Shown piece after piece: positions 767 through 51,291 of a stretch of DNA of 52,240 nt. Made by a program: the position numbers and the translations under genes. Positions within the stretch are counted from its first letter, which is position 1. The number at the start of each line of letters is the position of its first letter. The notes below the pieces were generated by a model, which was given only the letters and a program-made list of their open reading frames with translations, searched no databases and was not told where the DNA came from. The stretch is from Intestinibacillus massiliensis (GTDB taxonomy: Bacteria > Bacillota > Clostridia > Oscillospirales > Butyricicoccaceae): positions 377,362 to 429,601 of the forward strand of contig NZ_LT707060.1 of the NCBI RefSeq assembly GCF_900155735.1, written 5' to 3'.

Positions 767-795
767 GGATTGTGACTGGTAATGCAGGCAAAACG
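767..795 (+). promoter_or_regulatory. Ribonucleic antiterminator (RAT) site in front of the antiterminator gene
   Basis: The 29-base segment starts GGATTGTGACTGG and ends GCAGGCAAAACG, close to the consensus RAT bound by BglG/LicT/SacY proteins (GGATTGTTACTG, then GCAGGCAAAACC). Its 3' part overlaps the 5' arm of the terminator at 787, so RAT folding and terminator folding exclude each other. It matches the minus-strand site at 8688-8716 at 25 of 29 positions, including an unbroken run from ACTGG to GGCAA. Confidence 0.85.
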
Positions 796-830
796 AAGGA
801 TTGGCTTATGCTTTCGTTTTGCCTTATTTT
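787..830 (+). terminator. Leader terminator controlled by the RAT
   Basis: GGCAAAACGAAGG at 787-799 pairs with CTTTCGTTTTGCC at 811-823 (13 pairs, one G-U), followed by TTATTTT. It lies upstream of the start codon at 848, so it would stop transcription before the gene unless the overlapping RAT is stabilised by an antiterminator protein. Confidence 0.85.
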
Positions 831-847
831 ATTTTAGGGGTAGCAGG

Positions 848-1699
848 ATGAAGATCGAGAAGGTTCTAAACAATAATGTTGCGGTGACCCGGAACGAACA
901 GGGGCGTGAAGTCATTGTGATGGGGCGCGGCCTGGCGTTCAAAGGGAAGCCGGGGGACGGGATCGACCCGGAAAAAATTGAAAAGACCTTCATCATCACG
1001 GATGAGGGCGTGGCGGATAAGTTCCAGCAGCTGCTGGCCAACATCCCGATGGCGCACATGCTGATGAGCGAACGCATTATCAATTACGCCAAGATCAAAC
1101 TGGGCAAGCGCCTGAACGACAGCATTTACGTCACGCTGCCCGACCATATCTCCACGGCCATTTACCGCTATAAGGAGGGCATCCTGCTCAAAAACCCGCT
1201 GATGTGGGATATCCGCCGCTTTTACCGGGACGAGTACGAGGTCGGCCGCAAGGCAAACCAGATCGTCCTGGAGGAGACCGGGGTCGAGTTCCTCGAGGAC
1301 GAGGCCGCGTTTATCGCCATGCACTTTGTCAACGCGCAGCTTGGCGAGCAAATGTCCAACGTGTATGATATCACCTATATCATGCAGGAGGTCTGCAACA
1401 TCGTAAAAAACAACTTCCAGATGGAGTTTGATGAGGATTCGCTGGATTATTACCGTTTTATCACGCACCTCAAGTTTTTCGCGCAGCGCCTGCGCAGCGG
1501 CACGCACTATGAGGACGACGATACCGAACTGCTCGAGGTCATCCGCTATAAGCACCGGGATGCGTACGAGTGCACGGAAAAAATCAAGGGCTTCGTGCAG
1601 GAAAAGTATAAATATGAGCTTGGCAGTGAGGAAATGCTATACCTGACCGTGCATATCGCGCGGCTTACCAGGAAAACTAACCGAAAGGGAGTGCAATAG
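848..1699 (+). CDS. LicT/GlcT-family transcriptional antiterminator
   Basis: 283 residues, close to the 277 of Bacillus subtilis LicT. Residues 1-55 are the co-antiterminator RNA-binding domain (MKIEKVLNNNVAV, then VVMGRGLAF-like VMGRGLAFKG). PRD1 spans about 65-170 and PRD2 about 175-280. The four regulatory histidines fall at 100 (LPDHIS), 159 (IAMHFV), 207 (ITHLKF) and 269 (LTVHIA), the same numbering as LicT. In that family the sugar-specific EII phosphorylates PRD1 and inhibits, and HPr phosphorylates PRD2 and activates; which holds here is inference. The start at 848 has AGGGG seven bases upstream; an earlier in-frame ATG at 782 lies inside the RAT and is rejected. The stop abuts the ATG of ptsI. 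Likely targets are its own leader and the nag operon leader at 8688. Confidence 0.93.
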   Translation: MKIEKVLNNNVAVTRNEQGREVIVMGRGLAFKGKPGDGIDPEKIEKTFIITDEGVADKFQQLLANIPMAHMLMSERIINYAKIKLGKRLNDSIYVTLPDHISTAIYRYKEGILLKNPLMWDIRRFYRDEYEVGRKANQIVLEETGVEFLEDEAAFIAMHFVNAQLGEQMSNVYDITYIMQEVCNIVKNNFQMEFDEDSLDYYRFITHLKFFAQRLRSGTHYEDDDTELLEVIRYKHRDAYECTEKIKGFVQEKYKYELGSEEMLYLTVHIARLTRKTNRKGVQ

Positions 1700-3364
1700 A
1701 TGGTAGAGATCAACGGGAAAGGCGTATGCGGCGGCGTGGCCTTTGGACCCATTTGCTTTTATCGCCGCGGCCAGGCGGACACTTCGCGCCATACGGTAGC
1801 GGACGCGCAGGCCGAGGTACAGCGCTTTGAGGCGGCGAAGGGCAAGGCGGTCGCCCAGCTTGGCGCGCTTTATGAAAAGGCGCTGCAGGAAGTCGGCGAG
1901 GAGGGCGCGATGCTTTTCCAGACGCACCAGCTCATGCTGGAGGACCTCGATTACTGCGAATCCATCACCGGGATGATTACGGATGAAAGCGTCAACGCGG
2001 AGTATGCCGTACAGCAGGCCGCGGACACCTTTGCGGATATGTTTGCCCAGATGGACGACGCTTACATGCAGGCGCGCGCGGCCGACGTGCGCGACGTGTC
2101 CGCCCGCGTGCTGGGGATCCTGACCGGCAGCGAGGGCGGCGGCATCCATTCCGATATCCCCGTGATCGTCGCGGCGGACGACCTGGCGCCGAGCGAGACC
2201 GTGCAGCTGGACAAGTCCAAGATCCTGGGCTTCATCACGCAGGGCGGCTCCGCCAATTCCCATACGGCCATCCTGGCGCGCACCATGGGCATCCCCGCGG
2301 TGATCGGCGCGGGCGACGCGCTGCAAGAGGCGTACGACGGCAAGCAGGCCGTGATCGACGGCTCCGCAGGCCAGGCGTTTATCGAGCCGGACGCGGAAAC
2401 CTCCGCGCGGCTGCATAAAAAACAGGACGAGGAGCGCGGTCAGAAGGCGCTGCTCGACCAGCTCAAGGGGCAGCCGAACGTAACGAAGGACGGCCAGGAG
2501 GTCATGCTGTATGCCAATATCGGCAGCCCGGCCGACCTCGACGCGGTGCTGGCAAACGATGCGGGCGGCATCGGCCTGTTCCGCAGCGAGTTCCTGTACC
2601 TGGAATCCAGCGATTACCCGGATGAGGAGACGCTGTTCCAGGCCTACCGCACGGTCGCGGAGAAGATGGGGGGCAAGCGCGTTATCATCCGCACGCTGGA
2701 TATCGGCGCGGACAAGCAGGCGGCCTACTTCAACCTGCCGCACGAGGAAAACCCGGCGATGGGCCTGCGCGCGCTGCGCATCTGCCTGACGCGCCCGGAA
2801 ATTTTTAAGACCCAGCTGCGCGCGCTGTACCGCGCTTCCGCCTTCGGCAAGGTCGCAATCATGCTGCCGATGGTCACCTCCGTGTGGGAAGTGCAGGAAT
2901 CCAAAAAGCTGGCTGAAGAGGTACGCGCGGAACTGCGCGCGGAAGGCGTGGCGTTCGCGGAGGACGTGGAACTCGGCATCATGATCGAGACGCCCGCCGC
3001 CGCCATGATCAGCGACCGCCTGGCGCAGGAGGTCGATTTCTTCAGCGTCGGCACGAACGACCTGACGCAGTATACGCTGGCGGTCGACCGGCAGAATGAT
3101 ACGCTTGGCCGTTTCTTTGACCCGCACCACCCGGCGCTGTTGCGCCTGCTCAAGATGACGGCGGACAACGCCCACAAGCACGGCATCTGGATGGGCATTT
3201 GCGGCGAGCTGGGCGCGGACCTCGACCTGACCGAAACGTTCCTGTCGATCGGCGTGGATGAGCTTTCGGTTTCGCCCTCGCGCATCCTGCCGCTGCGCAA
3301 GAAGGTGCGGGAGACCGAGGTTTCCGGCATCCGCGAAGGCATCCTTGCAGGGATTATGGCCTGA
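1700..3364 (+). CDS. ptsI: Phosphoenolpyruvate-protein phosphotransferase (PTS enzyme I)
   Basis: 554 residues, normal length. It takes phosphate from PEP and passes it to HPr in the cytoplasm. The N-terminal half carries the swivelling phosphohistidine domain with GGSANSHTAILARTMGIPAV, the active His being residue 188. The C-terminal PEP-binding barrel shows GGIGLFRSEFLYL, the magnesium-ligand block IMIETPAAAM and the catalytic-Cys block GICGELGAD. The ATG directly follows the TAG of the antiterminator gene, with AAAGGGAG as ribosome site inside that gene's end. The pair is therefore translationally linked and enzyme I is placed under the RAT-terminator switch. HPr is not next to it but lies in the minus-strand nag operon 4.4 kb away. 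A strong hairpin follows the stop. Confidence 0.97.
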   Translation: MVEINGKGVCGGVAFGPICFYRRGQADTSRHTVADAQAEVQRFEAAKGKAVAQLGALYEKALQEVGEEGAMLFQTHQLMLEDLDYCESITGMITDESVNAEYAVQQAADTFADMFAQMDDAYMQARAADVRDVSARVLGILTGSEGGGIHSDIPVIVAADDLAPSETVQLDKSKILGFITQGGSANSHTAILARTMGIPAVIGAGDALQEAYDGKQAVIDGSAGQAFIEPDAETSARLHKKQDEERGQKALLDQLKGQPNVTKDGQEVMLYANIGSPADLDAVLANDAGGIGLFRSEFLYLESSDYPDEETLFQAYRTVAEKMGGKRVIIRTLDIGADKQAAYFNLPHEENPAMGLRALRICLTRPEIFKTQLRALYRASAFGKVAIMLPMVTSVWEVQESKKLAEEVRAELRAEGVAFAEDVELGIMIETPAAAMISDRLAQEVDFFSVGTNDLTQYTLAVDRQNDTLGRFFDPHHPALLRLLKMTADNAHKHGIWMGICGELGADLDLTETFLSIGVDELSVSPSRILPLRKKVRETEVSGIREGILAGIMA

Positions 3365-3380
3365 TGGCCGGCAAATAAAG

Positions 3381-3413
3381 AAGCGCCCCCGTCCGATGGA
3401 CGGGGGCGCTTTT
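3381..3413 (+). terminator. Terminator after ptsI
   Basis: AAGCGCCCCCGTCC at 3381-3394 pairs with GGACGGGGGCGCTT at 3398-3411, giving 14 pairs around a three-base loop, then TT. The A-rich 5' flank (AATAAAG) could also let it work for the minus-strand gene that ends at 3428. Confidence 0.8.
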
Positions 3414-3427
3414 GTGATCGCCTGGGG

Positions 3428-3958
3428 TTATAGGCTTGCCTGCTTCGCGGCCTGCAGGAACTGGTAGAGGCACACGGTGATGATAATCGAGCACGCCACG
3501 CCGACCAGCGTCACGATCCACACGAGCGAGAAGCCCGGCATTGCGTAGGAGAGCATGGAGACGACCACGCCAACCACGCCGCTCAGGATGGAGACCGTAA
3601 AGCACTGCTGCATCCGCCCCTGCGGATAAGCCAGGCGGTGCGTGGCGGCCACTTCCTCAAAGCCGTAAAACAAGTGGTACATGGCGAGCAGGGACAGCAC
3701 CACCGATACGATCGGCAGGATAAGCGCGAGGAACGGGATGACCATGGCGAGCAGCACCAGTACTGCGGCAAAGACCGCGTAGACCTCAAACCGGAACGCG
3801 TCGTTCAGGTGCTGGTTCTCGCCGCTCAGGCGCTTGAGCGCGACAAGGCAGACAATCAAGCCGGCGAGGCTGCACAGGCCGCCCACCGTCGGGATATAGC
3901 CGCCAAAGGACGACAGCAGGAATCCGATAAAATATAGCTGGATATGCGAAGACAACAT
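3428..3958 (-). CDS. Small multi-pass membrane protein of unknown function
   Basis: 176 residues, very hydrophobic, with four or five likely membrane segments at roughly 5-22, 24-42, 57-80, 82-95, 118-140 and 145-165, some of them short. There is no signal peptidase site, no charged catalytic motif and no match to a family that I recognise. The start at 3958 has AAAGGAGGGG just upstream. A minus-strand TGCTATACT, an extended -10, lies at 4032-4039, without a clear -35. The gene is alone: it lies between the ptsI terminator and the long hairpin after nagA. It may be a read-through member of the nag operon, but the intervening hairpin argues against this. Confidence 0.75.
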   Translation of the reverse strand: MLSSHIQLYFIGFLLSSFGGYIPTVGGLCSLAGLIVCLVALKRLSGENQHLNDAFRFEVYAVFAAVLVLLAMVIPFLALILPIVSVVLSLLAMYHLFYGFEEVAATHRLAYPQGRMQQCFTVSILSGVVGVVVSMLSYAMPGFSLVWIVTLVGVACSIIITVCLYQFLQAAKQASL

Positions 3959-4071
3959 AGGGGTTCCCCTCCTTTTCGAGTATGCCGCCGGGCGGCCTGG
4001 GTACGCCCGGCGCGCCGCTTTCTTATTACCCAGTATAGCACAGGGATTGGGAAAAGGCGAGCGTAAGAATT

Positions 4072-4111
4072 GGGAAAGGCCCGGCCGCGCATTGGCGGCC
4101 GGGCCTTTCCC
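4072..4111 (-). terminator. Long hairpin after nagA
   Basis: GGGAAAGGCCCGGCCGC at 4072-4088 pairs perfectly over 17 bases with 4095-4111 around a six-base loop. On the minus strand it is followed by AATTCTTACG, only moderately T-rich. It closes the nag operon 44 bases after the nagA stop. Confidence 0.7.
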
Positions 4112-4154
4112 CTCATGGTTTGGCAGGGTGTATCAGGTAAAAGGGTAAAAAGGG

Positions 4155-5270
4155 TCAATTCAGGATTTCACCGCGCAGGATGACCTTTTCCAGGTGCAGG
4201 TCGCTGCCCAGCAGCACGAGGTTGGCAAACTTGCCCGCGTCGATACTGCCGTATGCGCCGTAAATCCCAATGGATTTGGCCGGGTTTACCGTTGCCGCCT
4301 TGACCGCGCTACCGAGCGGGACGCCCATTTTGTGCACCGCGGTGCGCAGGCAGTCGAGCAGGTTGGTGGCGGAGCCGGCGATGGTGCCGTCGTGCAGGGT
4401 CGCGCGGTTGCCGGTCACCGTGACCGCCTGGCCGCCGAGGGAATACTCGCCGTCCGGCAGGCCGGTCGCCATCATGCTGTCGCTGATGAGGACGACGCGG
4501 TCGTCCCCGAAAAGCTGGAACGTCGCGCGCACCACGCTCGGGTGGATATGCACGCCATCCGTGATCAGCTCGACGTGGCAGTGCGGCGCGTCGAACGCGG
4601 CGCCAATCACACCGGGGGCGCGGTGGGAGAATGGAGGCATGGCATTATATAGATGGGTCACATGCCGCGCGCCCCGGTGGAAGGCTTCACAGGCCGTCTC
4701 ATAATCCGCGGCCGTGTGCGCAATGGAAATCGTGACTTCGTCCTTGAGGTCGGAAATGGTTTCAAACGCGCCCGGCTCTTCCGGCGCGATATCGAGCAGC
4801 TTAACCAGCCCGCCCGAAGCCGCCTGCAGGCGGCGGAACATTGCCGTGTCCGGCTGGTGCAGGAACGCGCCGTTTTGCGCGCCCTTTTTGGCCATCGAGA
4901 TGAACGGGCCCTCCATGTTGATGCCGACGAGCGCGGCCTCGCCCGCGCCGGCCTCGTAGGACTTCGCCGTTTCGCAGATGGTTGCCAGCTTGTCCTCGGG
5001 ATAGGTCATGGTCGCCGGGCAAATCGCGGTCACGCCGCTTTTCGCCTCATAGGAGGCCATTGCGGAAATGGCCTCCGGGGTGCCGTCGCAGAAATCATAT
5101 CCCACACAGCCGTGGAAATGCACGTCTACAAGGCCGGGGATCGCGTAGCAGCCGCTGCCGTCGATAACCTCCCCCTCCGGGGAATCGACGAAGCGGTCGC
5201 CCGCGATATAGACGTCGCGCCGGACGAAGGTACCGTCCTCACGGAACACCTTGGCGTTTCGGATAATCAT
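4155..5270 (-). CDS. nagA: N-acetylglucosamine-6-phosphate deacetylase
   Basis: 371 residues. It removes the acetyl group from GlcNAc-6-phosphate, giving glucosamine-6-phosphate for NagB. It is an amidohydrolase barrel: the metal-binding pair is in DVHFHG (His51, His53), Glu120 is in NMEGPF, later histidines are in SIAHT and THLYNAM, and the catalytic Asp is in LISDSM. Substrate-loop residues appear in FSHRAPGVIG. The ATG at 5270 has AGGTGA upstream. It is the last gene of the minus-strand operon, 19 bases after nagB, and a 17-pair hairpin follows it. Confidence 0.96.
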   Translation of the reverse strand: MIIRNAKVFREDGTFVRRDVYIAGDRFVDSPEGEVIDGSGCYAIPGLVDVHFHGCVGYDFCDGTPEAISAMASYEAKSGVTAICPATMTYPEDKLATICETAKSYEAGAGEAALVGINMEGPFISMAKKGAQNGAFLHQPDTAMFRRLQAASGGLVKLLDIAPEEPGAFETISDLKDEVTISIAHTAADYETACEAFHRGARHVTHLYNAMPPFSHRAPGVIGAAFDAPHCHVELITDGVHIHPSVVRATFQLFGDDRVVLISDSMMATGLPDGEYSLGGQAVTVTGNRATLHDGTIAGSATNLLDCLRTAVHKMGVPLGSAVKAATVNPAKSIGIYGAYGSIDAGKFANLVLLGSDLHLEKVILRGEILN

Positions 5271-5289
5271 TTAAAACATCACCTGTTTC

Positions 5290-6021
5290 TCAGAGTTTGC
5301 ACCGCGAAAGCGCGGCTTCGTCCGCAACAACAATGACGTCGGGATGCATCTGCAGGATGGAGGCCGGGACGAGGGGCGTGACCGGGCCGAAGAACGCCTT
5401 GTAGACGATATCGGCCTTGTCTTCGCCGCTGACGGCGACCAGGACCTTGCGTGCGGACATGATGGTCTGGATGCCCATGGTATAAGCCTGGCGCGGCACG
5501 TCGGCCTCGCTTGCAAAAAAGCGCTTGTTGGCTTCGATGGTGCTCGCCGTCAGGTCGACGCAGTGGGTGCCCTTGGGGAATTCATCGGCCGGCTCGTTAA
5601 AACCGATATGGCCGTTATGCCCCATGCCGAGCAGTTGCAGGTCGATCCCGCCGGCCGCGCGGATTGCCGCGTCATAACGCGCGCATTCACGCTCCGCGTC
5701 CGGCTCGGAGCCGTCCGGGATGTCGGTGCGCTCGACCGGGATCCCCGCGCCGTCCATGAAGTTGTGGCGCATGAAGTAGAAGTAGCTCTGGTCGTTGTCA
5801 CGGGTCAGGCCGCGGTATTCGTCGAGGTTGAAGGTGCGGATTTCAGAGAAGTCCAGGTCGCCCGCGCGCCCCCACGCGATCAGCTGCTTATAAGCGCCGA
5901 TCGGGGTGGAACCGGTCGCCAGCCCCAGGATGGAGTCCGGCTTCAAAACGACCTGCGCCGCGATCACGCCGGCGGCCTTGCGGCTCATGTCCTCGTAGTC
6001 TTTTGTACGGATGATTTTCAA
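5290..6021 (-). CDS. nagB: Glucosamine-6-phosphate deaminase
   Basis: 243 residues from a TTG start at 6021, which matches the N-terminus of the family (MKIIRTKDYEDMS). AAAGGAGG lies ten bases upstream. A nearer ATG directly touches the ribosome site and is out of frame, so it is rejected, and the in-frame extension back to 6090 has no homology. It isomerises and deaminates glucosamine-6-phosphate to fructose-6-phosphate and ammonia. Motifs: the phosphate loop GLATGSTPIGAY, the catalytic base in FNLDEYRGL, and GMGHNGHIGFNEP with the ring-opening His. The Asn before GHI, instead of Asp, is usual among Firmicutes enzymes as I remember them. It is 171 bases downstream of the IIBC gene with a hairpin between, so expression may be set separately. 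Confidence 0.95.
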   Translation of the reverse strand: MKIIRTKDYEDMSRKAAGVIAAQVVLKPDSILGLATGSTPIGAYKQLIAWGRAGDLDFSEIRTFNLDEYRGLTRDNDQSYFYFMRHNFMDGAGIPVERTDIPDGSEPDAERECARYDAAIRAAGGIDLQLLGMGHNGHIGFNEPADEFPKGTHCVDLTASTIEANKRFFASEADVPRQAYTMGIQTIMSARKVLVAVSGEDKADIVYKAFFGPVTPLVPASILQMHPDVIVVADEAALSRCKL

Positions 6022-6126
6022 TGGAATGCATCCTCCTTTTCCTATACTTAAGATGTAGTGCATGGGGGATACGGCCTTAGTTTTGGCCACTTGCGCCGCT
6101 TTTATCCATGCTGCGTTCTGGAAGGA

Positions 6127-6156
6127 GGGGGCGGGCAGTTAATCCTGCCCGCCCCC
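6127..6156 (-). terminator. Hairpin between the IIBC gene and nagB
   Basis: GGGGGCGGGCAG at 6127-6138 pairs perfectly with CTGCCCGCCCCC at 6145-6156 around TTAATC. On the minus strand CTTCC follows, so only weak termination is expected. It may partly terminate, or protect the 3' end of the upstream message. The remaining 100 bases up to nagB hold no clear promoter. Confidence 0.6.
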
Positions 6157-6192
6157 TGGATGTGTGGTGGAACGAATCCCCTTCGGTTCCTA

Positions 6193-7656
6193 TTATAACA
6201 GCTTCTTGAACTCGTCTGCAACAAATTGTACCTGCGTGCCGACGATAACCTGGACCGAGCTCTTGCTCGGGCGGATTACGCCTGCAATGCCGGCAGCCTT
6301 GATTGCCTTTTCATCAACGGCGGTGTAGTCCTTGATTTCGAGGCGCAGGCGGGTGATGCAGTTGTCAACCGAGGTGACGTTCTCCTTGCCGCCGAGGCCG
6401 GCAAGGATCTGCTTGGCGATGGCGGTAAAGTCGTTGTTCGCGAGCTTTACGCTCTCCTCGTCCACGTCGTCGTCTTCACGGCCAGGGGTCTTGAGGTTGA
6501 ACTTCGTGATGACGAAGCGGAAGACCACATAGTACACGATGGCGACGACGATGCCGATCGGGATGATCAGCCACACCTTCTGCGCCAGCGGCAGGCGGGA
6601 AGACAGCAGCAGGTCAATGACGCCGCCCGAGAACGAGAAGCCTGCGCGCATGCCGAGTGCAACGGTGATACCGGCGGAGAGGCCGGCCAGCACGGCGTGT
6701 ACGACGTACAGTGCGGGAGCCAGGAACATGAACGAGAACTCGATCGGCTCGGTTACGCCGGTGAAGAACGAGCAGAACGCGGCGGACGCGAGCAGGCCCA
6801 TGACGATCTTCTTCTTATTGGGCTTGGAGGTGTGGTACATAGCGAGGCAGGCAGCCGGCAGGCCGAACATCATGAACGGGAAGAAGCCCGCCATGTACAT
6901 ACCGGTCTGGCCCAGGACGCCCGTGTTGCCCCAGAAGTTGGTCAGGTCGGCGATGCCCGCGACGTCGAACCAGAAGACCGAGTTCAGCGCGTGGTGCAGG
7001 CCGAATGGGATGAGCAGCCGGTTCAGGAAAGCGTAGATACCGGAGCCGAGCGCGCCCAGGCTGACGATGGCTTCGCCGACGGAAACGAGTGCGCTGTAAA
7101 CGACCGGCCAGATGAAGAACAGGATTGCCGCGGCGACAATGGAGAATACCGCGGTGACGATTGCGACCGCGCGTTTGCCGCTGAAGAATGCCAGGAAGTC
7201 CGGAAGTTTGGTGTTTTTAAACTTGTTGTAGCACGTAGCGCCGATCAGGCCTGCGATGATGCCGATAAACTGGTTTTCGATCTTGCCGAACGCGGGGTTG
7301 ACTGCGTCCGCGGCAACACCGGTCAGCGCGGCGATCGTGCCGGAACTGAGCAGCTTTGTGATCATCAGCCACGAGACCAGGCCGGCCAGGCCGGAGGTGC
7401 CTTCGTGGTCGTCGGCCATGCCGACTGCGACGCCGATGGCGAATAGCCACGCCATATTGTCAATGAGCGCGCCGCCCGCCTTGATCAAGAACGTACCGAT
7501 TACATATGCGGGGCCGCCGGCGACGAAGCCTGCGACCTCACCGGCCATGGCGGCCGGCGCCAGGATGTAGCCGATGCCCATCAGGATACCGGCAACCGGC
7601 AGACAAGCGACCGGCAGCATCAGGGATTTGCCTAGCTTTTGCAAATACTTTAACAT
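6193..7656 (-). CDS. nagE: PTS N-acetylglucosamine-specific IIBC component
   Basis: 487 residues. The N-terminal IIC domain, about 1-385, is a membrane transporter of the glucose/GlcNAc superfamily. It shows GLHHALNSVFWFD and the conserved FFTGVTEPIEFSF block, both typical of GlcNAc rather than glucose permeases. A charged linker with EDDDVDEE leads to the IIB domain, whose phosphorylated Cys433 is in VDNCITRLR. There is no fused IIA, which is supplied by the separate gene at 8079. The protein imports GlcNAc and phosphorylates it at C6. The ATG at 7656 has AAAGGGAGG upstream. Lying with nagA and nagB supports the substrate, though related amino sugars cannot be excluded. Confidence 0.93.
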   Translation of the reverse strand: MLKYLQKLGKSLMLPVACLPVAGILMGIGYILAPAAMAGEVAGFVAGGPAYVIGTFLIKAGGALIDNMAWLFAIGVAVGMADDHEGTSGLAGLVSWLMITKLLSSGTIAALTGVAADAVNPAFGKIENQFIGIIAGLIGATCYNKFKNTKLPDFLAFFSGKRAVAIVTAVFSIVAAAILFFIWPVVYSALVSVGEAIVSLGALGSGIYAFLNRLLIPFGLHHALNSVFWFDVAGIADLTNFWGNTGVLGQTGMYMAGFFPFMMFGLPAACLAMYHTSKPNKKKIVMGLLASAAFCSFFTGVTEPIEFSFMFLAPALYVVHAVLAGLSAGITVALGMRAGFSFSGGVIDLLLSSRLPLAQKVWLIIPIGIVVAIVYYVVFRFVITKFNLKTPGREDDDVDEESVKLANNDFTAIAKQILAGLGGKENVTSVDNCITRLRLEIKDYTAVDEKAIKAAGIAGVIRPSKSSVQVIVGTQVQFVADEFKKLL

Positions 7657-7685
7657 TGTGCGATTACCCTCCCTTTTTACTCTGT

Positions 7686-7704
7686 GCGCCGCAGTCCGCG
7701 GCGC
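7686..7704 (-). other. Hairpin between the HPr and IIBC genes
   Basis: GCGCCGC at 7686-7692 pairs with GCGGCGC at 7698-7704 around a five-base loop, about 30 bases upstream of the IIBC start. There is no useful T-run. It may trim or weaken IIBC expression relative to HPr. The rest of the 140-base gap shows nothing I recognise. Confidence 0.4.
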
Positions 7705-7796
7705 GGTGTGTCATGTTCCCCAGCGATACGCAAAGCCGGGGTACGTTTGAAACCCGTTCCACCCAACGAGATTCCTTCGGAAAATGGGGATGCTGT

Positions 7797-8054
7797 TTAT
7801 AGGTTGGCTTTGAGGAAGCTTTCCATACCTTCGGCTGCGGCGTCCTCGTCCGGGCCCTCGCAGGTCACGGTGATGGCCTGGCCGCCCTTGACACAAAGCC
7901 CCATGAGCGCCATGATGCGGCGCGCATCGGCCGACTTGGCGTCGGTCGCGATCGTGATCTTGCTTTCAAAGCCCTGCGCCGCCTTGACCAGCAGGCCGGC
8001 CGGGCGCGCGTGGATGCCGAGGGGGTCGGTGATCGTGTATTCTATGCGTTTCAT
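7797..8054 (-). CDS. HPr-family phosphocarrier protein lacking the Ser46 site
   Basis: 85 residues, normal length. His15 in PLGIHARPAG is intact, so it can carry phosphate from enzyme I to IIA. Counting from Met1, residue 46 is Arg (ADARRIMALMGL), whereas the Firmicutes regulatory form has Ser46 in a KSIMGVMSLG-like block. HPr kinase could not phosphorylate it there. It lies between the IIA and IIBC genes, so it is probably a dedicated carrier for this operon, and a second, Ser46-bearing HPr could exist elsewhere. If it is the only HPr, classical Ser46-P/CcpA catabolite repression would be missing. The gene follows IIA by 24 bases. Confidence 0.93.
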   Translation of the reverse strand: MKRIEYTITDPLGIHARPAGLLVKAAQGFESKITIATDAKSADARRIMALMGLCVKGGQAITVTCEGPDEDAAAEGMESFLKANL

Positions 8055-8078
8055 TGGCTGTCTATCCTTTCTCTGCAG

Positions 8079-8576
8079 TTATTTTTTTAAACGGATGAGC
8101 GGGTCAAGCTCGGCAACCGGGGAGCCCGTCACCGCGGAGACATCGGCGTAGTCGGAGGTGTTGCATATGACAACCGGGGTAATGATGTCATAGCCCGCGC
8201 CGGTGATTCCCGCGATGTCGAACTCCATTAGCAGGTCGCCTTTTTTGACCTGGTCCCCGTTTTTCGCATGGATTGTGAAGTGCTCGCCGCCCAGCTTGAC
8301 GGTGTCCAGCCCGACGTGGATGAGGATTTCCGTGCCCGCCGCCGCGCGGAGCGAAACCGCGTGGCCGGTGTCGAACATGGTCTCGACCGTGCCGTCGACC
8401 GGGCTGACGACCCTGCCCTTGCTCGGGCGGATGGCCGCGCCCTTGCCCAGGATCTCCTGGCCGAAGGTCGGGTCGCTGACTTCGGAAAGCGGTACGGCTT
8501 GGCCTTCTACCGGCGCGCCGACCGCTAGGCCGTCGTCGCCGCCGAGGCCGAGCTTTTCTTTCAATTTACCAAACAT
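8079..8576 (-). CDS. crr: PTS glucose-family IIA component
   Basis: 165 residues. It is a stand-alone IIA of the glucose class: a flexible 20-residue leader, then the beta-sandwich with SPVDGTVETMFDTGHAVSL (His72) and TEILIHVGLDTVKL (His87, the phosphorylated residue). It moves phosphate from HPr to the IIB domain of the GlcNAc transporter. It is the first gene after the promoter-RAT-terminator leader, and the ATG at 8576 has AAAGGTG about ten bases upstream. Its position suggests a role for the nag transporter, but Glc-class IIA proteins often serve several permeases. The symbol is given by homology only. Confidence 0.92.
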   Translation of the reverse strand: MFGKLKEKLGLGGDDGLAVGAPVEGQAVPLSEVSDPTFGQEILGKGAAIRPSKGRVVSPVDGTVETMFDTGHAVSLRAAAGTEILIHVGLDTVKLGGEHFTIHAKNGDQVKKGDLLMEFDIAGITGAGYDIITPVVICNTSDYADVSAVTGSPVAELDPLIRLKK

Positions 8577-8630
8577 CGTAATATCACACCTTTACAAAAT
8601 TCATGGGGTAGTTTTCCCCGGAATGCCATG

Positions 8631-8693
8631 AAAAAAACAAAAAAGACCAAATTTCATACGCCGCAGTTCCCTGCGCGTTCGAAATTTGGTCTT
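8631..8693 (-). terminator. Leader terminator of the nag PTS operon
   Basis: Read on the minus strand, AAGACCAAATTTC (8681-8693) pairs with GAAATTTGGTCTT (8643-8655), with further pairing possible inside the loop. TTTTTTGTTTTTTT (8631-8644) follows. It lies between the RAT and the IIA start codon, and its 5' arm overlaps the 3' end of the RAT by about six bases. Confidence 0.9.
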
Positions 8694-8716
8694 GCCTGCA
8701 TTACCAGTAACAACCC
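8688..8716 (-). promoter_or_regulatory. RAT antiterminator site of the nag PTS operon
   Basis: The minus-strand segment begins GGGTTGTTACTGG and ends GCAGGCAAGACC. It matches the LicT-type RAT consensus and the copy at 767-795 at 25 of 29 positions. It overlaps the terminator arm, so binding of the antiterminator would let transcription through into IIA, HPr, IIBC, nagB and nagA. Confidence 0.87.
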
Positions 8717-8740
8717 AAGTTGTTGTTAACTTATGGTTCC

Positions 8741-8769
8741 AGTATAATGGGCGGCCTGCCCGAAATCAA
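8741..8769 (-). promoter_or_regulatory. Promoter of the nag PTS operon
   Basis: On the minus strand, TTGATT at 8764-8769, a 17-base spacer and TATACT at 8741-8746. The predicted start lies close to 8734, about 18 bases before the RAT. The cutC stop lies 53 bases further upstream on the same strand, with no clear terminator between. Confidence 0.75.
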
Positions 8770-8821
8770 TAGCCAACCGTCACAGATAAAATTGTGAAAT
8801 TTCTGTGAACTTGCACAAAAG

Positions 8822-9580
8822 TCAGGCGCGGTATGCCGTTTGCAGCACGTCCGCCGCCGCGCGTACGGCTTCGGCGTCCGTACGCCATACCGCGTATTCG
8901 TCGAGTGAGGCCGCGCCCATGGACACCGCGGGGTTGCGCCAGCGCATCCCACTCTGCAGCACGGCTTTGCCGGACATGTGGAAATGCCGCGCGCCCATCG
9001 CCGCGGTGAAATCGCGGATGACCGCGGCGTTTACGCCCCCGCCGATCAGGATTTCCGGGGCGTCCCCGGCGCGTCCCAGCAATTCCTGGAGCAGGGCGCG
9101 CCCGCTGGAGCAGGCATTTTGCTGCCCGGACGTCAGGATGGTGGACACGCCGAGGGCGCGTGCGTCCTCCAGCGCGCGCAACGGGTCGGCGGCCATGTCG
9201 AACGCGCGGTGCAGCGTGACGGGGAGCCCGTCCGCCCGCTGTACCAGCGCCTGCATGCGGGGCATGTCGAGCGCGCCGTCCGCCGTCAGGCAGCCCACGA
9301 CCACGCCGTCCGCCCCGGCCTCGCGGAACAGCGAGACCTCCTCGAGCAGCACGGCAAATTCCGGTTCGCTGTATAAAAAGTCCCCGTAACGCGGCCGCAG
9401 CAGGACGCGCACAGGAAGGCGGCAGCGGCGGCGCACCTCGCGGAACAGGGCGAGGCTTGGGGAAAGCCCGCCGATCACCAGGCCGCTGCAAAGCTCCAGG
9501 CGGGTCGCGCCGCCCGCTTCGGCGGCAAGCGCGGATTCGACCGAATCGGCGCAGACTTCAAGGGTATATGGCTTATGCAT
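8822..9580 (-). CDS. cutC: CutC family protein
   Basis: 252 residues, full length for the family. The TIM-barrel CutC signature is clear: LEVCADSVESALAAEAGGA, RLELCSGLVIGGLSPS, then VLLRPRYGDFLYSE, LHRAFDMAADP and ILTSGQQNACSSG. The family was named for copper homeostasis, but that role is disputed and no biochemical activity is firmly known. Lying immediately upstream of an amino-sugar PTS operon on the same strand, it could instead act in carbohydrate metabolism; this is inference. The ATG at 9580 is preceded by GGAGGAT. Its promoter at 9716-9744 shares the -35 region with the divergent HD-domain gene, and a 130-base GC-rich leader without a recognised riboswitch separates promoter and gene. 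Confidence 0.93.
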   Translation of the reverse strand: MHKPYTLEVCADSVESALAAEAGGATRLELCSGLVIGGLSPSLALFREVRRRCRLPVRVLLRPRYGDFLYSEPEFAVLLEEVSLFREAGADGVVVGCLTADGALDMPRMQALVQRADGLPVTLHRAFDMAADPLRALEDARALGVSTILTSGQQNACSSGRALLQELLGRAGDAPEILIGGGVNAAVIRDFTAAMGARHFHMSGKAVLQSGMRWRNPAVSMGAASLDEYAVWRTDAEAVRAAADVLQTAYRA

Positions 9581-9715
9581 GGGAATCCTCCTTCTGCGGC
9601 TGCCGCAAAATACCGTTTCCCGGCAAAGGCGTGCCTGCCGACGGGGCTGATACCCCAGGCGCCCTCCGACGGTGTGGGCAACGGGTTGTTTGGCAGCCGT
9701 CCACCCGTTTTTGAT

Positions 9716-9744
9716 ATTATACCCGTTTCCCGCCCGGTTGACAA
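9716..9744 (-). promoter_or_regulatory. cutC promoter
   Basis: On the minus strand, TTGTCA at 9739-9744, a 17-base spacer and a perfect TATAAT at 9716-9721. Its -35 overlaps five of six bases with the -35 of the opposite promoter at 9738. Confidence 0.78.
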
Positions 9745-9766
9745 ACGGAAATCGCGGCGTTATGAT
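9738..9766 (+). promoter_or_regulatory. Promoter of the HD-domain gene
   Basis: A perfect TTGACA at 9738-9743, a 17-base spacer and TATGAT at 9761-9766. It overlaps back to back with the cutC promoter, so one polymerase at the shared -35 should block the other. Confidence 0.8.
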
Positions 9767-9794
9767 GGGGGCAGAAAAAAGGAGGCTATAACGT

Positions 9795-10367
9795 ATGGAT
9801 TTTACAAGGGGGCAGGCGTGGGGACTGCTGACGGAATATAATAAGGAGCCGTTCCATCTGCGCCACGCGCTGACGGTCGAAGGCGTGATGCGGTATTTCG
9901 CGCAGGCGCTCGGTTACGGCGGGGAAACGGATTTCTGGGGCATTGCCGGCCTGCTGCACGACCTGGATTTTGAACAGTTCCCGGAACAGCACTGCATCAA
10001 GGCGGCGGAACTGATGCAGGCGCGCGGGCTGGACGCGCGGCTGATCCATGCGGTCGTCAGCCACGGGTACGGCATCACGGCCGACGTGCGGCCGGAGCAC
10101 GAGATGGAGAAGGTGCTCTTCGCCACGGACGAGCTGACGGGCCTCATCGGCGCGGCGGCGCTCATGCGCCCCTCCAAAAGCGTGCAGGACATGGAGGCCA
10201 AGTCGGTCAAAAAGAAGTTCAAGGACAAGAAGTTCGCCGCGGGATGCTCGCGCGAAGTCATCCGGCAGGGGGCGGACATGCTGGGCTGGACGCTGGACGA
10301 GCTGGTAGAGAAGACGATCCTCGCCATGCGCGTGGACGAGCAGGCGATCAACAAGGCAATGGGATAA
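9795..10367 (+). CDS. HD-domain phosphohydrolase-like protein
   Basis: 190 residues. The metal-binding pattern of HD hydrolases is present: His24 (HLRHALTV), His55-Asp56 (GLLHDLDFE), His90 (VVSHGYG) and Asp112 (FATDELTG). Such proteins hydrolyse phosphoesters of nucleotides or related compounds in the cytoplasm; the substrate is unknown. The spacing resembles a widespread family of single-domain HD proteins often annotated as HDIG or hydrolase. The ATG has AAAAAAGGAGG upstream. It is a single-gene transcript between its own promoter and a hairpin, and divergent from cutC. Confidence 0.85.
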   Translation: MDFTRGQAWGLLTEYNKEPFHLRHALTVEGVMRYFAQALGYGGETDFWGIAGLLHDLDFEQFPEQHCIKAAELMQARGLDARLIHAVVSHGYGITADVRPEHEMEKVLFATDELTGLIGAAALMRPSKSVQDMEAKSVKKKFKDKKFAAGCSREVIRQGADMLGWTLDELVEKTILAMRVDEQAINKAMG

Positions 10368-16292: not shown

Positions 16293-16307
16293 CTATCATT
16301 ATGATAG
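16293..16307. promoter_or_regulatory. 15-base palindrome in the rpoB leader
   Basis: CTATCATTATGATAG is a perfect odd palindrome about 30 bases after the expected transcript start. It could be a protein-binding site or a small hairpin. Its half site CTATCAT resembles that of the palindrome at 46266 next to the BlaI-type gene, but the spacing differs. Confidence 0.3.
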
Positions 16308-16412
16308 CACGCCTGATTCCCGGGCGCAAGAGGCAATTCGCAAAATTAACCACGCCTCCGGGCGTATCACATGAATACACTGAGCGGAAAGAAACGGAGT
16401 GATGGGTACAAC

Positions 16413-20147
<3,735 letters not shown>

Positions 20148-20174
20148 GGTTCGGGAAAGGAGCAACTTGAATCC

Positions 20175-23705
<3,531 letters not shown>

Positions 23706-36600: not shown

Positions 36601-36629
36601 TTGTGAAACTTACAGAAAACTGGTATGCT
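36601..36629 (+). promoter_or_regulatory. Promoter of the GGDEF/EAL gene
   Basis: TTGTGA at 36601-36606, a 17-base spacer and TATGCT at 36624-36629. It gives a leader of about 170 bases. From 36467 to 36600 I see nothing recognisable. Confidence 0.55.
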
Positions 36630-36752
36630 ATGGAATAAGGTATTGCGGCTTGCTGTCGCAGTAAAGGTTATTTCTTTCTTTAGCGCAGGAATATTTAAAA
36701 AATTGGCGGCTCCTGGCCATATTTGGCGGGGATGCCGACAGTGCTTTCCCGC

Positions 36753-36791
36753 CCTGCCGGCGCACGCTGCCGGCAGGTTTCAGTATTTTTT
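36753..36791 (+). terminator. Leader hairpin with T-run upstream of the GGDEF/EAL gene
   Basis: CCTGCCGGC at 36753-36761 pairs perfectly with GCCGGCAGG at 36769-36777, followed by TTTCAGTATTTTTT. It lies 16 bases before the start codon and after the promoter at 36601, so it looks like an attenuator. It is too far from tadA to be that gene's normal terminator. The leader lacks the conserved bases of the c-di-GMP-I riboswitch as I know it. Confidence 0.6.
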
Positions 36792-36807
36792 GGGACGGGG
36801 TGTTTGG

Positions 36808-39543
36808 ATGCAAAAGCGGATAATACCGGCTTTTTTAATGGTGGCGCTGCTGATCTGCGGCGTCGTATCGGTTTTTTCGATCGATAGGATGCAGGGTTAC
36901 GCGCGGGTCATCAACTATGCGGGCATCGTCCGCGGCGCGACCCAGCAACTGGCTAAGGAAGAACTGAACGGGCAGCCGAACGACGCGTTGATCGGCAAGC
37001 TGGACGCAATCCTGGCCGGGCTGCAGGGCGGGGAAAACGAGTACGATTTGTCCCGGATGGACAGCGGGGAATTCCAGGCGCTGCTGGAAGAGATGCAGGC
37101 CGCATGGGCAGGGATGAAGCGGGAAATCCGGCAAGTGCGCGCCGGCGGCGGCGGGGACGCCCTGTTCGCGGACAGCGAGGATTACTTTAACCTTGCCAAC
37201 CGGGCGGTGCACGCGGCGGAGGAGTATACCGCGGAAAAGGTACAGCAAACCGAGCAGGGGCTGTTGCTGCTGATCCTCCTGATTGTGGCAGCGGCGGTTT
37301 TGCTGATGTGGTACGGCACGGTGCAGTCCCGGCGGCGTGAAAAGCTGCAGGCCGAGGAGGACGAATACCTGCGTAAAAAGGAGTATCTCGACCGCATGTC
37401 GGAATCGCTCCGCGCACCCATGAATGATATTTCCGAGCTGCTGTATATTTCCGATGTGGAGAACTATGAGCTGCTTTTCCTCAATGAGGCGGGCAAGCGG
37501 ACTTTCGGCGTGACCGGCGATTTTTCCGGGCAAAAGTGTTATAAGGTCGTGCAGGGCATGGACGAGCCCTGCGCATTTTGCAACAACAGCAAGCTGAAAA
37601 TGGGCGAAAACTATACCTGGGAGCACACAAATACGCTGACAGGTGCGCATTACCTGCTGAAGGACCGCCTGGTGGAATGGGACGGGCGGATCGCCCGGAT
37701 GGAGTTGGCGTTTGATATGTCGGAAGCGGAGCGGCGCAAACAGTCCCTGCAAAGGGCGCTGGACGTGGAAAAGATGCTGGTGGACTGCGTCCGTACGCTC
37801 TACCAGAATACAGAGTTCCCCATCGCCGTTTCCCATATGCTGAAACAGCTCGGCGCGTTCCTGTCCGCCGGCCGCACCTATATCATGGTGCTGGAGGAAG
37901 ACGGGTACCTGCACCGGCAATTCGAGTGGTGCGCGGATGGCGTCGAAAGCGGGATGCATACCTCGCAGGTGACCCCGCATGTCGTGGTCGAGCGCTGGCT
38001 CCCGCACTTCCAAAAGGATGAGTGCATGGTGATCGGCGACGTGGCGCGGCTGCAGGAAGAATCGCCGGAGGAATTTGAACTGCTGCGCCGCCAGAACGTC
38101 TCGCGCCTGGTGGCCGCGCCGCTGGAGATGGACGGCAAGCTGGTCGGCTTCCTCGGGGTCGACAATCCCCCGCTGGACCGGCTGGAGCATATCGCACCGC
38201 TGTTCCAGACCTTGTGCTACTTCATTATCCTGGCATGGCAGCGGTCGGAGAGCGAGCAGGAACTTTCCATGCTCAGTTATTATGATACGCTGACAAAGTT
38301 TTATAACCGGAACCGCTACACGCAGGACACAGAGGCGCTGCGGTGCGCCGATGGGCCGGTGGGCGTGATCTACCTGGACGTCAACGGGCTTAAGGACATC
38401 AACGACCTGCAGGGGCACGCGTTCGGCGACAAGGTTTTGGTCCGGTGCGCGGATATGATGCGCGAGGTTTTCGAAGGCGCCGCCTTTTACCGCATTGGGG
38501 GGGATGAATTCGTCATTATTTCGACGGGCACCGGCAAGGCGGAGTTTGACGCCCGGGCGCGGGAACTGCGGCACCGCTTGCAGATGGACGAGCAGTGCAA
38601 TGCGGCGATCGGCGCGCGCTGGGAGGAGAGCACCGCGAACCTCCAGCAGGTAATCGCCGAGGCGGATGCGGAAATGTACGAGGACAAAAAGTCCTTCTAC
38701 CGGCAGAACCCCATGTCGAACCGGTACCGCCACGCCAACGACGAACTGCTGCGCCTGGCAGACCCCAAGGTGCTGCGGCAGGAGATCCTGAACAAGCAGT
38801 TTGTGGTGTACTTACAGCCCAAGGTCTCGTCCTCCGACGAGAGCACGCAGGGCGCGGAAGCGCTGATCCGCTACCGGCCGCGGCCGGATACGCTGGTGCT
38901 GCCGGGCAACTTCCTGCCGATGCTCGAGGAGCGGCGCGTCGTCAGCCAGCTTGATTTTTATGTATTCGAGTTCGTCTGCTCCAAGATGCGGGAGTGGGCG
39001 GAGGAAGGCAAGCAGGCTTGCCCGGTATCCGTCAATTTTTCCTGTTGCTCGCTCGCGCAGCCCGGCTTTGTCAAGAAGCTTGAAGCGATCTGCGGCAAAT
39101 ACGGGATTTCCAAGCAGCAGCTTGAAATTGAGATCACCGAACGCGGCCGTAATAAGGACGATGTGGATTTCAGGGGCGTCATCGGGCAGCTGCGCGCGGC
39201 GGGCTTTGTCGTGTCGATCGACGGGTTTGGGATCGAGACCTCGAACATGACGCTGCTGTCGGCGGTGGAATTTGACGTGCTCAAGCTGGACAAGAGCATG
39301 ATCGACGACGTCGACAGCAATCTGCGGACACGTGCGGTCATCGAGTCCATTGCCGGGATCTGCCGGAAGATGGGCATTAAGCTCGTGGCCAAGGGCATCG
39401 AGAGCAAACAGCAGCTTGTCGCGCTGCGCGAGAGCGGAGTGGAGCTGGCGCAGGGCTTCCTGTTCAGCAGGCCCATCCCGATCGAGGAGTACGAGACCGA
39501 ATACCTTAAGCGCAAGGCCGGGGACGCGCCCCTGGGAACATAA
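36808..39543 (+). CDS. Membrane PAS-GAF-GGDEF-EAL signalling protein with degenerate EAL domain
   Basis: 911 residues. Membrane segments at about 7-25 and 151-170 enclose a helical outside domain. PAS-like domain about 205-310 with a CAFCNN cysteine patch; GAF about 320-475; GGDEF about 485-630; EAL about 655-895. The GGDEF site is intact (LDVNGLKDINDLQGH and RIGGDEF, 563-568), but the inhibitory RxxD site is absent. The EAL motif (684-686), Asn743 and the Glu of EITER are kept. The usual DDFGTG reads DGFGIE at 805-810, and AEGVE reads AKGIE at 861-865, so phosphodiesterase activity is doubtful. I infer a c-di-GMP synthase with an EAL module that may only bind ligand. The start follows a weak GGGACGGGG site; an in-frame ATG at 36625 lies in the leader and is less likely. 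Confidence 0.88.
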   Translation: MQKRIIPAFLMVALLICGVVSVFSIDRMQGYARVINYAGIVRGATQQLAKEELNGQPNDALIGKLDAILAGLQGGENEYDLSRMDSGEFQALLEEMQAAWAGMKREIRQVRAGGGGDALFADSEDYFNLANRAVHAAEEYTAEKVQQTEQGLLLLILLIVAAAVLLMWYGTVQSRRREKLQAEEDEYLRKKEYLDRMSESLRAPMNDISELLYISDVENYELLFLNEAGKRTFGVTGDFSGQKCYKVVQGMDEPCAFCNNSKLKMGENYTWEHTNTLTGAHYLLKDRLVEWDGRIARMELAFDMSEAERRKQSLQRALDVEKMLVDCVRTLYQNTEFPIAVSHMLKQLGAFLSAGRTYIMVLEEDGYLHRQFEWCADGVESGMHTSQVTPHVVVERWLPHFQKDECMVIGDVARLQEESPEEFELLRRQNVSRLVAAPLEMDGKLVGFLGVDNPPLDRLEHIAPLFQTLCYFIILAWQRSESEQELSMLSYYDTLTKFYNRNRYTQDTEALRCADGPVGVIYLDVNGLKDINDLQGHAFGDKVLVRCADMMREVFEGAAFYRIGGDEFVIISTGTGKAEFDARARELRHRLQMDEQCNAAIGARWEESTANLQQVIAEADAEMYEDKKSFYRQNPMSNRYRHANDELLRLADPKVLRQEILNKQFVVYLQPKVSSSDESTQGAEALIRYRPRPDTLVLPGNFLPMLEERRVVSQLDFYVFEFVCSKMREWAEEGKQACPVSVNFSCCSLAQPGFVKKLEAICGKYGISKQQLEIEITERGRNKDDVDFRGVIGQLRAAGFVVSIDGFGIETSNMTLLSAVEFDVLKLDKSMIDDVDSNLRTRAVIESIAGICRKMGIKLVAKGIESKQQLVALRESGVELAQGFLFSRPIPIEEYETEYLKRKAGDAPLGT

Positions 39544-49646: not shown

Positions 49647-49916
49647 ATGCGCGCAGTTATCACCGTGGTCGGTAAGGACCGCACCGGCATCATCGCCAAA
49701 ATTTCCGAAACCCTGTACGCCCACCAGGTCAATATCGTGGACATCTCCCAAAACGTCATGAGCGACATGTTCGCGATGGTCATGCTGGTCAATATCGACC
49801 GCTGTACCGTGGACTTTACGCAGCTTGCCGACCTGCTGGATCAGGACGGCGAGGCGCTCGGCATGAAGATCCACACCATGCATGAAGATATCTTCAACGC
49901 AATGCACAGGATTTGA
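49647..49916 (+). CDS. ACT-domain protein (UPF0237)
   Basis: 89 residues, a single ACT domain: [43 protein letters not shown] domains bind amino acids and tune enzymes. It is always found next to the UPF0210 protein in the genomes that I recall, here separated by ten bases, so the two probably act together. AGGAGGAATAA precedes the ATG. Confidence 0.92.
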
Positions 49917-49926
49917 GGGCGCGGCA

Positions 49927-51291
49927 ATGGCAATGATTAATACACACGACATTTTAGAGACCATCAAGATGATCGAGGAGGAACACCTCGACATCCGCAC
50001 GATCACCATGGGCATTTCGCTGCGCGACCTTGCGTCGGACGACATCGGCGTGCTGTGCGACAAGATCTACGAGAAGATCACCCGCCGCGCGGAGAAGCTG
50101 GTTTCGACGGGCGAGCAGATCGAGCGCGAGCTCGGCATCCCGATCATCCACAAGCGCATTTCGGTCACCCCGATCGCCATGATCGGCGCGACCACGACGG
50201 CCGGCAGCTATGTCCCGATCGCTCAGGCGCTCGACCGCGCCGCGGCGGCGACCGGCGTCAACTTCATCGGCGGCTTTTCCGCCCTGGTGCAGAAGGGCTT
50301 TGCCAAGGGAGACGAGATCCTGATCAACTCCATCCCGGAGGCGCTTGCGGTGACGAACAACGTCTGCGCGTCGGTCAACGTCGCGTCGACCAAGGCGGGC
50401 GTGAACCTGGACGCGATCGCGCTCATGGGGCGCATCATCAAGCAGACCGCGGAGCGCACGAAGGACAACCAGTCCCTCGGCTGCGGCAAGCTGGTCGTAT
50501 TCGCCAACGCGGTGGACGACAACCCGTTCATGGCGGGCGCGTACCACGGCATCGGCGAGCCGGAAACGGTCATCAACGTCGGCGTATCCGGCCCGGGCGT
50601 GGTGCAGTCGGCCATCCGCCGCGCGGGCGACTGCCCGATCAACGAGGTCGCGGAGATTATCAAAAAGACCGCGTTCAAGATCACGCGTATGGGGCAGCTT
50701 GTCGGCTCGATCGCGTCGGAGCGCCTGGGCGTGCCGTTCGGCATCGTCGATTTGTCGCTTGCGCCGACCCCGGCGATCGGCGACTCGGTCGCGCGCATCC
50801 TTGAGGAAGTCGGCCTGGAGACCTGCGGCTGCTGCGGCACGACCGCAATCCTGGCCATGCTGAACGACGCGGTCAAGAAGGGCGGCGTCATGGCGTCCTC
50901 GTCGGTCGGCGGCCTGTCGGGCGCGTTTATCCCGGTATCCGAGGACGAGGGCATGATTGCGGCGGTGCAGGCCGGCGTGCTCACGCTGGAGAAGCTCGAG
51001 GCGATGACGGCCGTTTGCTCGGTCGGCATCGACATGGTCGCCGTTCCGGGCGACACGACCGCGGAGGTCATTTCCGGCCTGATCGCGGACGAAATCGCGA
51101 TCGGCGTGGTCAACTCCAAGACGACCGCCGTGCGCGTCATCCCGGCCTATGGCAAGAACGTCGGCGACAGCGTCGAGTTCGGCGGCCTGCTGGGCACCGC
51201 GCCCATCATGCCGATCTCCACAAAGTCCCCAGCGAAGTTCATCCACCGCGGCGGCCGTATCCCGGCGCCGATCCAGAGCCTCAAAAACTAA
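49927..51291 (+). CDS. UPF0210 (DUF711, PFL-like) protein
   Basis: 454 residues from the ATG at 49927; a second ATG two codons on is possible. Blocks include [22 protein letters not shown]-like [45 protein letters not shown] and [14 protein letters not shown]. The fold is related to pyruvate formate-lyase, but the glycyl-radical motif is absent. Function is unknown. The conserved pairing with the ACT-domain protein suggests amino-acid-regulated metabolism. A 16-pair terminator follows. Confidence 0.92.

Follow-up and report, generated by a model that had tools for sequence, protein, structure and literature searches.

In the model systems described for Firmicutes, a single HPr protein links sugar transport, via His15, to repression, via Ser46, and phosphate at one of these residues hinders phosphorylation of the other. 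Bacillus-type species also possess Crh, in which His15 is replaced by Gln and the retained Ser46 is marked, beside an HPr featuring both sites (PMC9631020). For B. subtilis, methylglyoxal synthase is described as a partner of Crh (PMC9631020). A Ser46-type regulator separate from the phosphotransferase system (PTS) was already published for Clostridium cellulolyticum, a species said to encode a Crh-like protein and neither an HPr ortholog nor a cognate PTS EII; CcpA homologues were proposed as its partners, and the relevant passages of that publication describe no carrier with Arg or Lys at position 46 (PMC3656788). For Thermoanaerobacterium saccharolyticum, another member of the Clostridia, HPr and Crh orthologues were reported together (PMC3526391). 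The family analyzed here shares this joint occurrence. It differs from T. saccharolyticum, the HPr of which was treated as possessing His15 as well as Ser46 and for which BLAST searches revealed CcpA homologues (PMC3526391). In addition, the PTS carriers of the family lack Ser46, in contrast to Bacillus HPr with its two retained sites.

The stretch of DNA analyzed in this study, referred to as the window, comprises 52,240 nucleotides of the Intestinibacillus massiliensis genome. It encodes an HPr of 85 amino acids on the minus strand (7797..8054), whose open reading frame (MKRIEYTITDPLGIHARPAGLLVKAAQGFESKITIATDAKSADARRIMALMGL..., read from 8054 to 7797) starts with ATG and is preceded by a plausible ribosome-binding site. 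The deduced protein matched the HPr profiles PF00381 (E-value 3.9e-29; 101 bits, cut-off 23) and TIGR01003 (85.3 bits, cut-off 47.9), and its motif GIHARPAG contains the active-site residues His15, Arg17 and Pro18. In the gap-free phmmer alignment with the solved E. coli HPr, Arg46 is located opposite the Ser of SAKSLF, and MAFFT alignments with B. subtilis HPr were likewise ungapped. The sequence-only reading, namely an HPr that retains His15 and features Arg in place of Ser46, is borne out by open reading frame, profile and ungapped alignment. The Ser46 typical of HprK-regulated Firmicutes HPr is replaced by Arg in this protein, and a Ser at a shifted position, named beforehand as the finding that would overturn the reading, was looked for and is excluded by the same alignment. 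Ser41, the nearest upstream Ser, was considered as a stand-in for Ser46 and rejected, since this position is occupied by Ser in just nine of the 70 family carriers without Ser46 and is not conserved.

In family profile, length, the HARPA motif around His15 and the position expected for it between Enzyme I and IIA, the window HPr resembles the HPr (ptsH) of Bacillus and Enterococcus. It is unlike these in its Arg at position 46, where Arg or Lys is the rule among its relatives, and the regulatory role is expected to be absent. Based on its residues and gene neighborhood, the protein is predicted to receive phosphate from Enzyme I and to transfer it to IIA; it would be able to carry phosphate and unable to take the Ser46 mark, in agreement with what had been claimed before. 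A comparable HPr is encoded by Lachnospira eligens ATCC 27750 (NC_012780.1), which shares 56.5% identity, possesses an intact His15 and Lys46, and adjoins Enzyme I; it differs in its fructose PTS context and in belonging to the order Lachnospirales.

The HPr gene is embedded in a cluster of minus-strand genes in the order IIA, HPr, IIBC, nagB and nagA, separated by gaps of 24, 140, 102 and 19 nt. Upstream of HPr, a glucose-family PTS IIA is encoded (8079..8576; PF00358, E-value 4.1e-50). Downstream are genes for a PTS IIBC of the N-acetylglucosamine type (6193..7656; TIGR01998, 623.7 bits, cut-off 553.2), the glucosamine-6-phosphate deaminase NagB (5290..6090; TIGR00502, 266.9 bits, cut-off 236.9), the open reading frame of which begins with GTG and the real start of which is probably located further downstream, and the N-acetylglucosamine-6-phosphate deacetylase NagA (4155..5270; TIGR00221, 315.1 bits, cut-off 225.65). 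Judged by order and spacing, these five genes likely form one cotranscribed operon. A promoter-like site before IIA (8741..8769, minus strand) matched the consensus at only 9 of 12 positions. About 4.4 kb from HPr and in opposite orientation, genes for a LicT-type antiterminator (848..1699, plus strand; NF046042, 392.5 bits, cut-off 300) and Enzyme I (ptsI, 1700..3364, plus strand; TIGR01417, above cut-off) were identified. This ptsI represents the single PF05524 match in the whole 2.84 Mb genome. Elsewhere in the window, genes for a GGDEF-EAL protein (36625-39543, plus strand) and a DUF711 protein (49882-51291, plus strand) were observed, as well as an open frame of 1470 codons (16299-20711, minus strand) opposite an rpoB-like ORF, which most likely results from codon bias. 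No tRNA genes were found within the window.

Both gene groups are preceded by a ribonucleic antiterminator (RAT) sequence, located at 767..794 (plus strand) before licT-ptsI and at 8689..8716 (minus strand) before IIA-HPr-IIBC-nagB-nagA. Both agree with the search pattern without mismatch, which is so by construction as the pattern was derived from these two sites after they had been spotted by eye. In 100 shuffles with up to three mismatches allowed, no match was obtained, an estimate that concerns the occurrence of two sites; with a looser pattern, matches were obtained at 11 of 231 loci, including two copies of the window locus (L002 and L039). Each RAT overlaps a terminator-like hairpin as deduced from sequence and folding, one with a T-rich tail in the licT leader (787..835, plus strand; z -2.11, five of 200 shuffles equally low) and one with a T run in the IIA leader (8638..8693, minus strand; z -4.52). 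A simple terminator scan restricted to positions 3300-9800 listed neither hairpin, and Rfam at the gathering threshold returned no match. The arrangement of a RAT overlapping a terminator is expected of leaders controlled by LicT, and binding of LicT to the two sites is predicted.

The deduced LicT contains seven His residues, including those at positions 100, 159, 207 and 269, which we take to be the PRD phosphorylation sites known from B. subtilis LicT. In B. subtilis, PRD2 of LicT is described to be phosphorylated by HPr (PMC7430163), and by this analogy the window HPr probably helps to control its own genes and the Enzyme I gene via LicT. In Enterococcus faecalis, NagY, an antiterminator of the BglG/SacY family, likewise acts together with a RAT-terminator leader on the N-acetylglucosamine PTS (PMC9981650). 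In contrast to the NagY system, the window features RATs in front of the Enzyme I and HPr genes themselves.

In order to place the window HPr among its paralogs, the complete genome was screened for further HPr genes, hprK and ccpA, as the sequence-only reading had proposed. The screening revealed four HPr-domain proteins, one HprK and no protein reaching the CcpA cut-off. Two of the HPr-domain proteins combine His15 with Arg46, namely the window HPr and L003, the gene of which follows just after the apparent end of a pfkB-type kinase gene, as judged by eye. A third protein (L001) possesses Tyr15 and Ser46 (GLYARPAT...VNAKSLLG) and is encoded between mutS2 and uvrC. The fourth (L004, L042:5820-6053) is a truncated HPr-like protein without His15, in which Ser46 lies within IDAKSIMGIFSLDL. 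Ser46 proteins lacking the His were also found in seven further genomes of the family, not all of them of the L004 form, and the L004-type truncated protein possibly represents a second HprK substrate.

The protein featuring Tyr15 and Ser46 follows the same logic as Crh, i.e., replacement of His15 and retention of Ser46, and it scored higher against solved Crh (75.8 bits) than against solved B. subtilis HPr (approximately 62-63 bits). Among solved structures, its best match is 3le1 (91.5 bits), which is related to HPr and features GLHARPA as well as Ser46. It is unlike Crh in having Tyr rather than Gln at position 15 and in the location of its gene beside mutS2 and uvrC. Assignment of L001 to Crh itself was rejected: PRK13782, presumably the Crh model, was the highest-scoring model and yielded 100.8 bits against a cut-off of 123.

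The single hprK gene of the genome (L005) encodes a protein matching TIGR00679 with 378.4 bits (cut-off 240) and possesses an intact Walker A motif (GDSGVGKS). It is located at 4808-5740 within L043:2947-6749, downstream of a phosphoglucose isomerase gene on the same strand; a ROK-family kinase gene follows about 70 nt downstream on the same strand if the ATG at 5808 is its start. These neighbors would link HprK to glucose entry independent of the PTS. The proposal that this lineage may lack HPr-based repression finds no support in this form: HprK possesses intact motifs, and L001 and L004 retain Ser46 while lacking His15. CcpA-dependent repression of the classical type may nevertheless be absent, since no recognizable CcpA was detected: none of the LacI-type proteins in the genome reached the TIGR01481 cut-off, the best (L006) scoring 196.5 against 442.35 bits. 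Among solved structures, L006 is nearest to CcpA. The CcpA residue contacting phosphorylated Ser46 is Arg304 in B. subtilis (PMC4591507), and the equivalent position, as assigned from a phmmer alignment, is occupied by Lys in L006 and by Arg in L007. Within the window, one cre-like site with at most one mismatch was found versus 1.78 expected.

The location of the window HPr among nag genes, together with the second HPr with His15 and Arg46 encoded in the same genome, is compatible with the proposal that it serves only the adjoining N-acetylglucosamine permease and that another HPr serves other permeases. On the other hand, only one Enzyme I was found, encoded at the same locus behind a matching RAT. 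Furthermore, in genome G001 of the same genus, one intact-His15 HPr was found, which possesses Lys46 and is encoded beside IIA and a glucose-family IIBC that is approximately 40% identical to the window IIBC. A dedicated nag carrier, as suggested earlier, agrees with the gene neighborhood; it is nevertheless considered unlikely, and less likely than a general carrier, to which the single Enzyme I behind a matching RAT and the single His15 HPr of G001 point.

For the family survey, HPr sequences were collected from 47 genomes of the same family (25 plus 22 more) and, outside the family, from another 15 genomes of the same order. In 11 genomes behind named loci, 30 of the 37 matches were also read; these genomes were reached via relatives of the window HPr, so that HPrs with Arg or Lys at position 46 are expected there by selection. 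One fragment row (G031:C1:630277) was left out, and G047, identical to G022 in contigs and places, was excluded from the counts. In total, the 47 family genomes encode 132 HPr-domain proteins; the truncated protein L121 of G010 with an aligned Tyr at position 15 was counted among those without His. Exactly one HPr with Tyr15 and Ser46 (motif VGLYARPAT) was present in each of the 47 genomes, and it was the only type present in 12 of the first 25. Alignment of position 46 across the family revealed Arg or Lys in 64 of the 73 HPrs with intact His15, the others featuring Asn (3), Gln, His or Tyr (one each) or Ser (3). Among the 70 without Ser46, Arg is present in 40 and Lys in 24. As judged from these alignments, the preference for basic residues exceeds chance, and Arg46 of the window HPr is part of a wider pattern rather than a one-off mutation.

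An intact His15 motif and Ser46 never occur in the same protein in 46 of the 47 family genomes. The exception is G010, the three intact HPrs of which account for all three Ser46 cases; it is also the one family genome in which HprK was not found (assembly of approximately 390 contigs), an absence that is unsure because the HprK searches can miss members. A further deviating protein, from G062, possesses His15 in the degenerate motif VFVHAQVAA together with Ser46. The occurrence of intact His15 also matches that of Enzyme I: an intact-His15 HPr was present in 31/31 family genomes with Enzyme I and in 1/16 without detected Enzyme I (G016, His15 and Arg46), counts that refer to related genomes rather than independent events and correspond to seven genera with and six without Enzyme I. 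Mean pairwise identity amounts to 84% for the 47 Tyr15 proteins versus 50% for the 64 carriers with Arg or Lys at position 46.

Gene context, read in flanks of up to 4 kb (median 1.5 kb for the Tyr15 proteins), also separated both types. All 47 Tyr15/Ser46 genes have mutS2 and/or uvrC within 1 kb and none has a neighbor matching the PTS/nag query, whereas mutS2 or uvrC adjoins none of the 70 His15 carriers without Ser46 and a PTS or nag gene of the window type was detected next to 29 of them. Such a neighbor is absent from the flanks read for the remaining 41 carriers; for 34 of these loci, 50 nearby ORFs on the same strand were analyzed, among which PTS EIIA_2 (7), PTS IIB (5) and EIIC (4) were represented. 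Many family carriers are not visibly located inside a PTS operon.

HprK was identified in 39 of the 40 genomes searched, a search that can miss members, as PF07475 missed the B. subtilis control and PF02603 detected only that of Lactococcus lactis. None of the 40 genomes contained a CcpA equivalog at the TIGR01481 cut-off (reporting limit E-value 1e-70). G003, G027 and G038 possess HprK as well as a Ser46 HPr, and a loose CcpA-profile search, which can miss distant members, returned no LacI-type candidate from these genomes. The absence of CcpA equivalogs and the number of cre-like sites in the window, which is not above chance, would suit a lineage devoid of HPr-based regulation, in which Arg46 represents a decayed regulatory site. 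However, HprK is widespread and intact by sequence in I. massiliensis itself, all 47 Tyr15 proteins possess Ser46, and the carriers without Ser46 feature Arg or Lys in 64 of 70 cases instead of random residues; decay is regarded as highly improbable. As judged from the deduced proteins, the lineage keeps the HprK/Ser46 branch on a Crh-like protein without the phosphate-carrying His. The bias towards basic residues could alternatively serve mainly to strengthen docking to acidic surfaces of Enzyme I and IIA, with escape from HprK as a by-product. A negative charge at position 46, as phosphoserine or Asp, weakens phosphate transfer from Enzyme I, which fits this explanation. Taken as the main role of the residue, docking appears rather doubtful; moreover, it does not conflict with a carrier that fails to respond to HprK, and both may apply together.

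The NAKSLLG core is shared by 21 proteins read from outside the family; the His15 motif is intact in 16 of them, and uvrC and/or mutS2 were located in the flanks of 16. They therefore probably represent the same gene, with Tyr15 having arisen within the line leading to the family. The active-site motif of this gene was also lost in other ways, namely by Arg15 in G026 and by HNRQ or HNKQ in G042, G044 and G049. Among the 13 genomes outside the family without detected Enzyme I, a full-length Ser46 HPr was present in 12 (G035 yielded a short match only), and 11 of these 12 proteins keep His15 (G025, G027-G030, G032, G033 and G036-G039). Hence, the disappearance of His15 is not accounted for by PTS loss alone.

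Two trees were calculated, from both of which truncated proteins were excluded. In the first, which includes long rows as well as columns 15 and 46, Tyr15 requires one change (support 71) and residue 46, coded in three states, six changes. The second, a quick tree of 82 columns from which columns 15 and 46 and seven long-branch rows were removed, requires two changes for Tyr15 and three for residue 46. A single origin of Tyr15 is considered likely from these topologies. In the second tree, Ser46 proteins (74 rows) and proteins without Ser46 (83 rows) are located on opposite sides of one branch (SH-aLRT 97), a split that may be partly an artefact as this branch meets the long row G031_L101. On this evidence, the window HPr appears to belong to a separate, older set of HPrs and not to be a recent mutant of a regulatory HPr. 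The set extends beyond the order, with His15 and Lys46 in the HPr of L. eligens and His15 and Arg46 in an HPr encoded by a Treponema metagenome-assembled genome (L028).

Based on residues, gene context and phylogeny, the window HPr is very probably a general PTS carrier of a clade with Arg or Lys at position 46 that is deaf to HprK, the HprK signal passing via a separate HPr with Tyr15 and Ser46. Enzyme I from the same locus would phosphorylate His15, and the carrier would pass the phosphate to the adjoining IIA and IIBC for N-acetylglucosamine uptake. It would also phosphorylate PRD2 of LicT, and antitermination by LicT would switch on licT-ptsI and IIA-HPr-IIBC-nagBA. HprK would be able neither to inhibit this carrier nor to convert it into a corepressor because residue 46 is basic. 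The HPr with Tyr15 and Ser46, the gene of which adjoins mutS2 and uvrC, is predicted to carry the HprK signal and to take no part in the PTS. The reciprocal loss, i.e., PTS carriers without Ser46, seems to be new here: among the literature matches listed (titles and beginnings of abstracts, with subscription literature mostly uncovered and novelty hence unproven), neither HPrs with Arg or Lys at position 46 nor a Tyr15 HPr are described.

More tentatively, the HprK/Ser46 relay could be detached from both sugar transport and CcpA, the conserved Tyr15 HPr, which occurs in all family genomes read irrespective of the presence of a PTS, reporting the metabolic state to a target other than CcpA and the carriers with a basic residue 46 being immune to HprK. 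Such a separation may have arisen repeatedly, since the active-site motif was lost in several ways in related genomes. For Staphylococcus aureus, HPr phosphorylated at Ser46 was suggested to act partly without CcpA (PMC7996215). The results raise the question of which role Ser46-phosphorylated HPr plays in cells that possess HprK and have neither Enzyme I nor a recognizable CcpA. Arg46 of the window HPr suggests that two HPr functions, transport and reporting of the energy state, are kept apart throughout the family, and a family distributing His15 and Ser46 to different proteins would represent a natural separation-of-function experiment.
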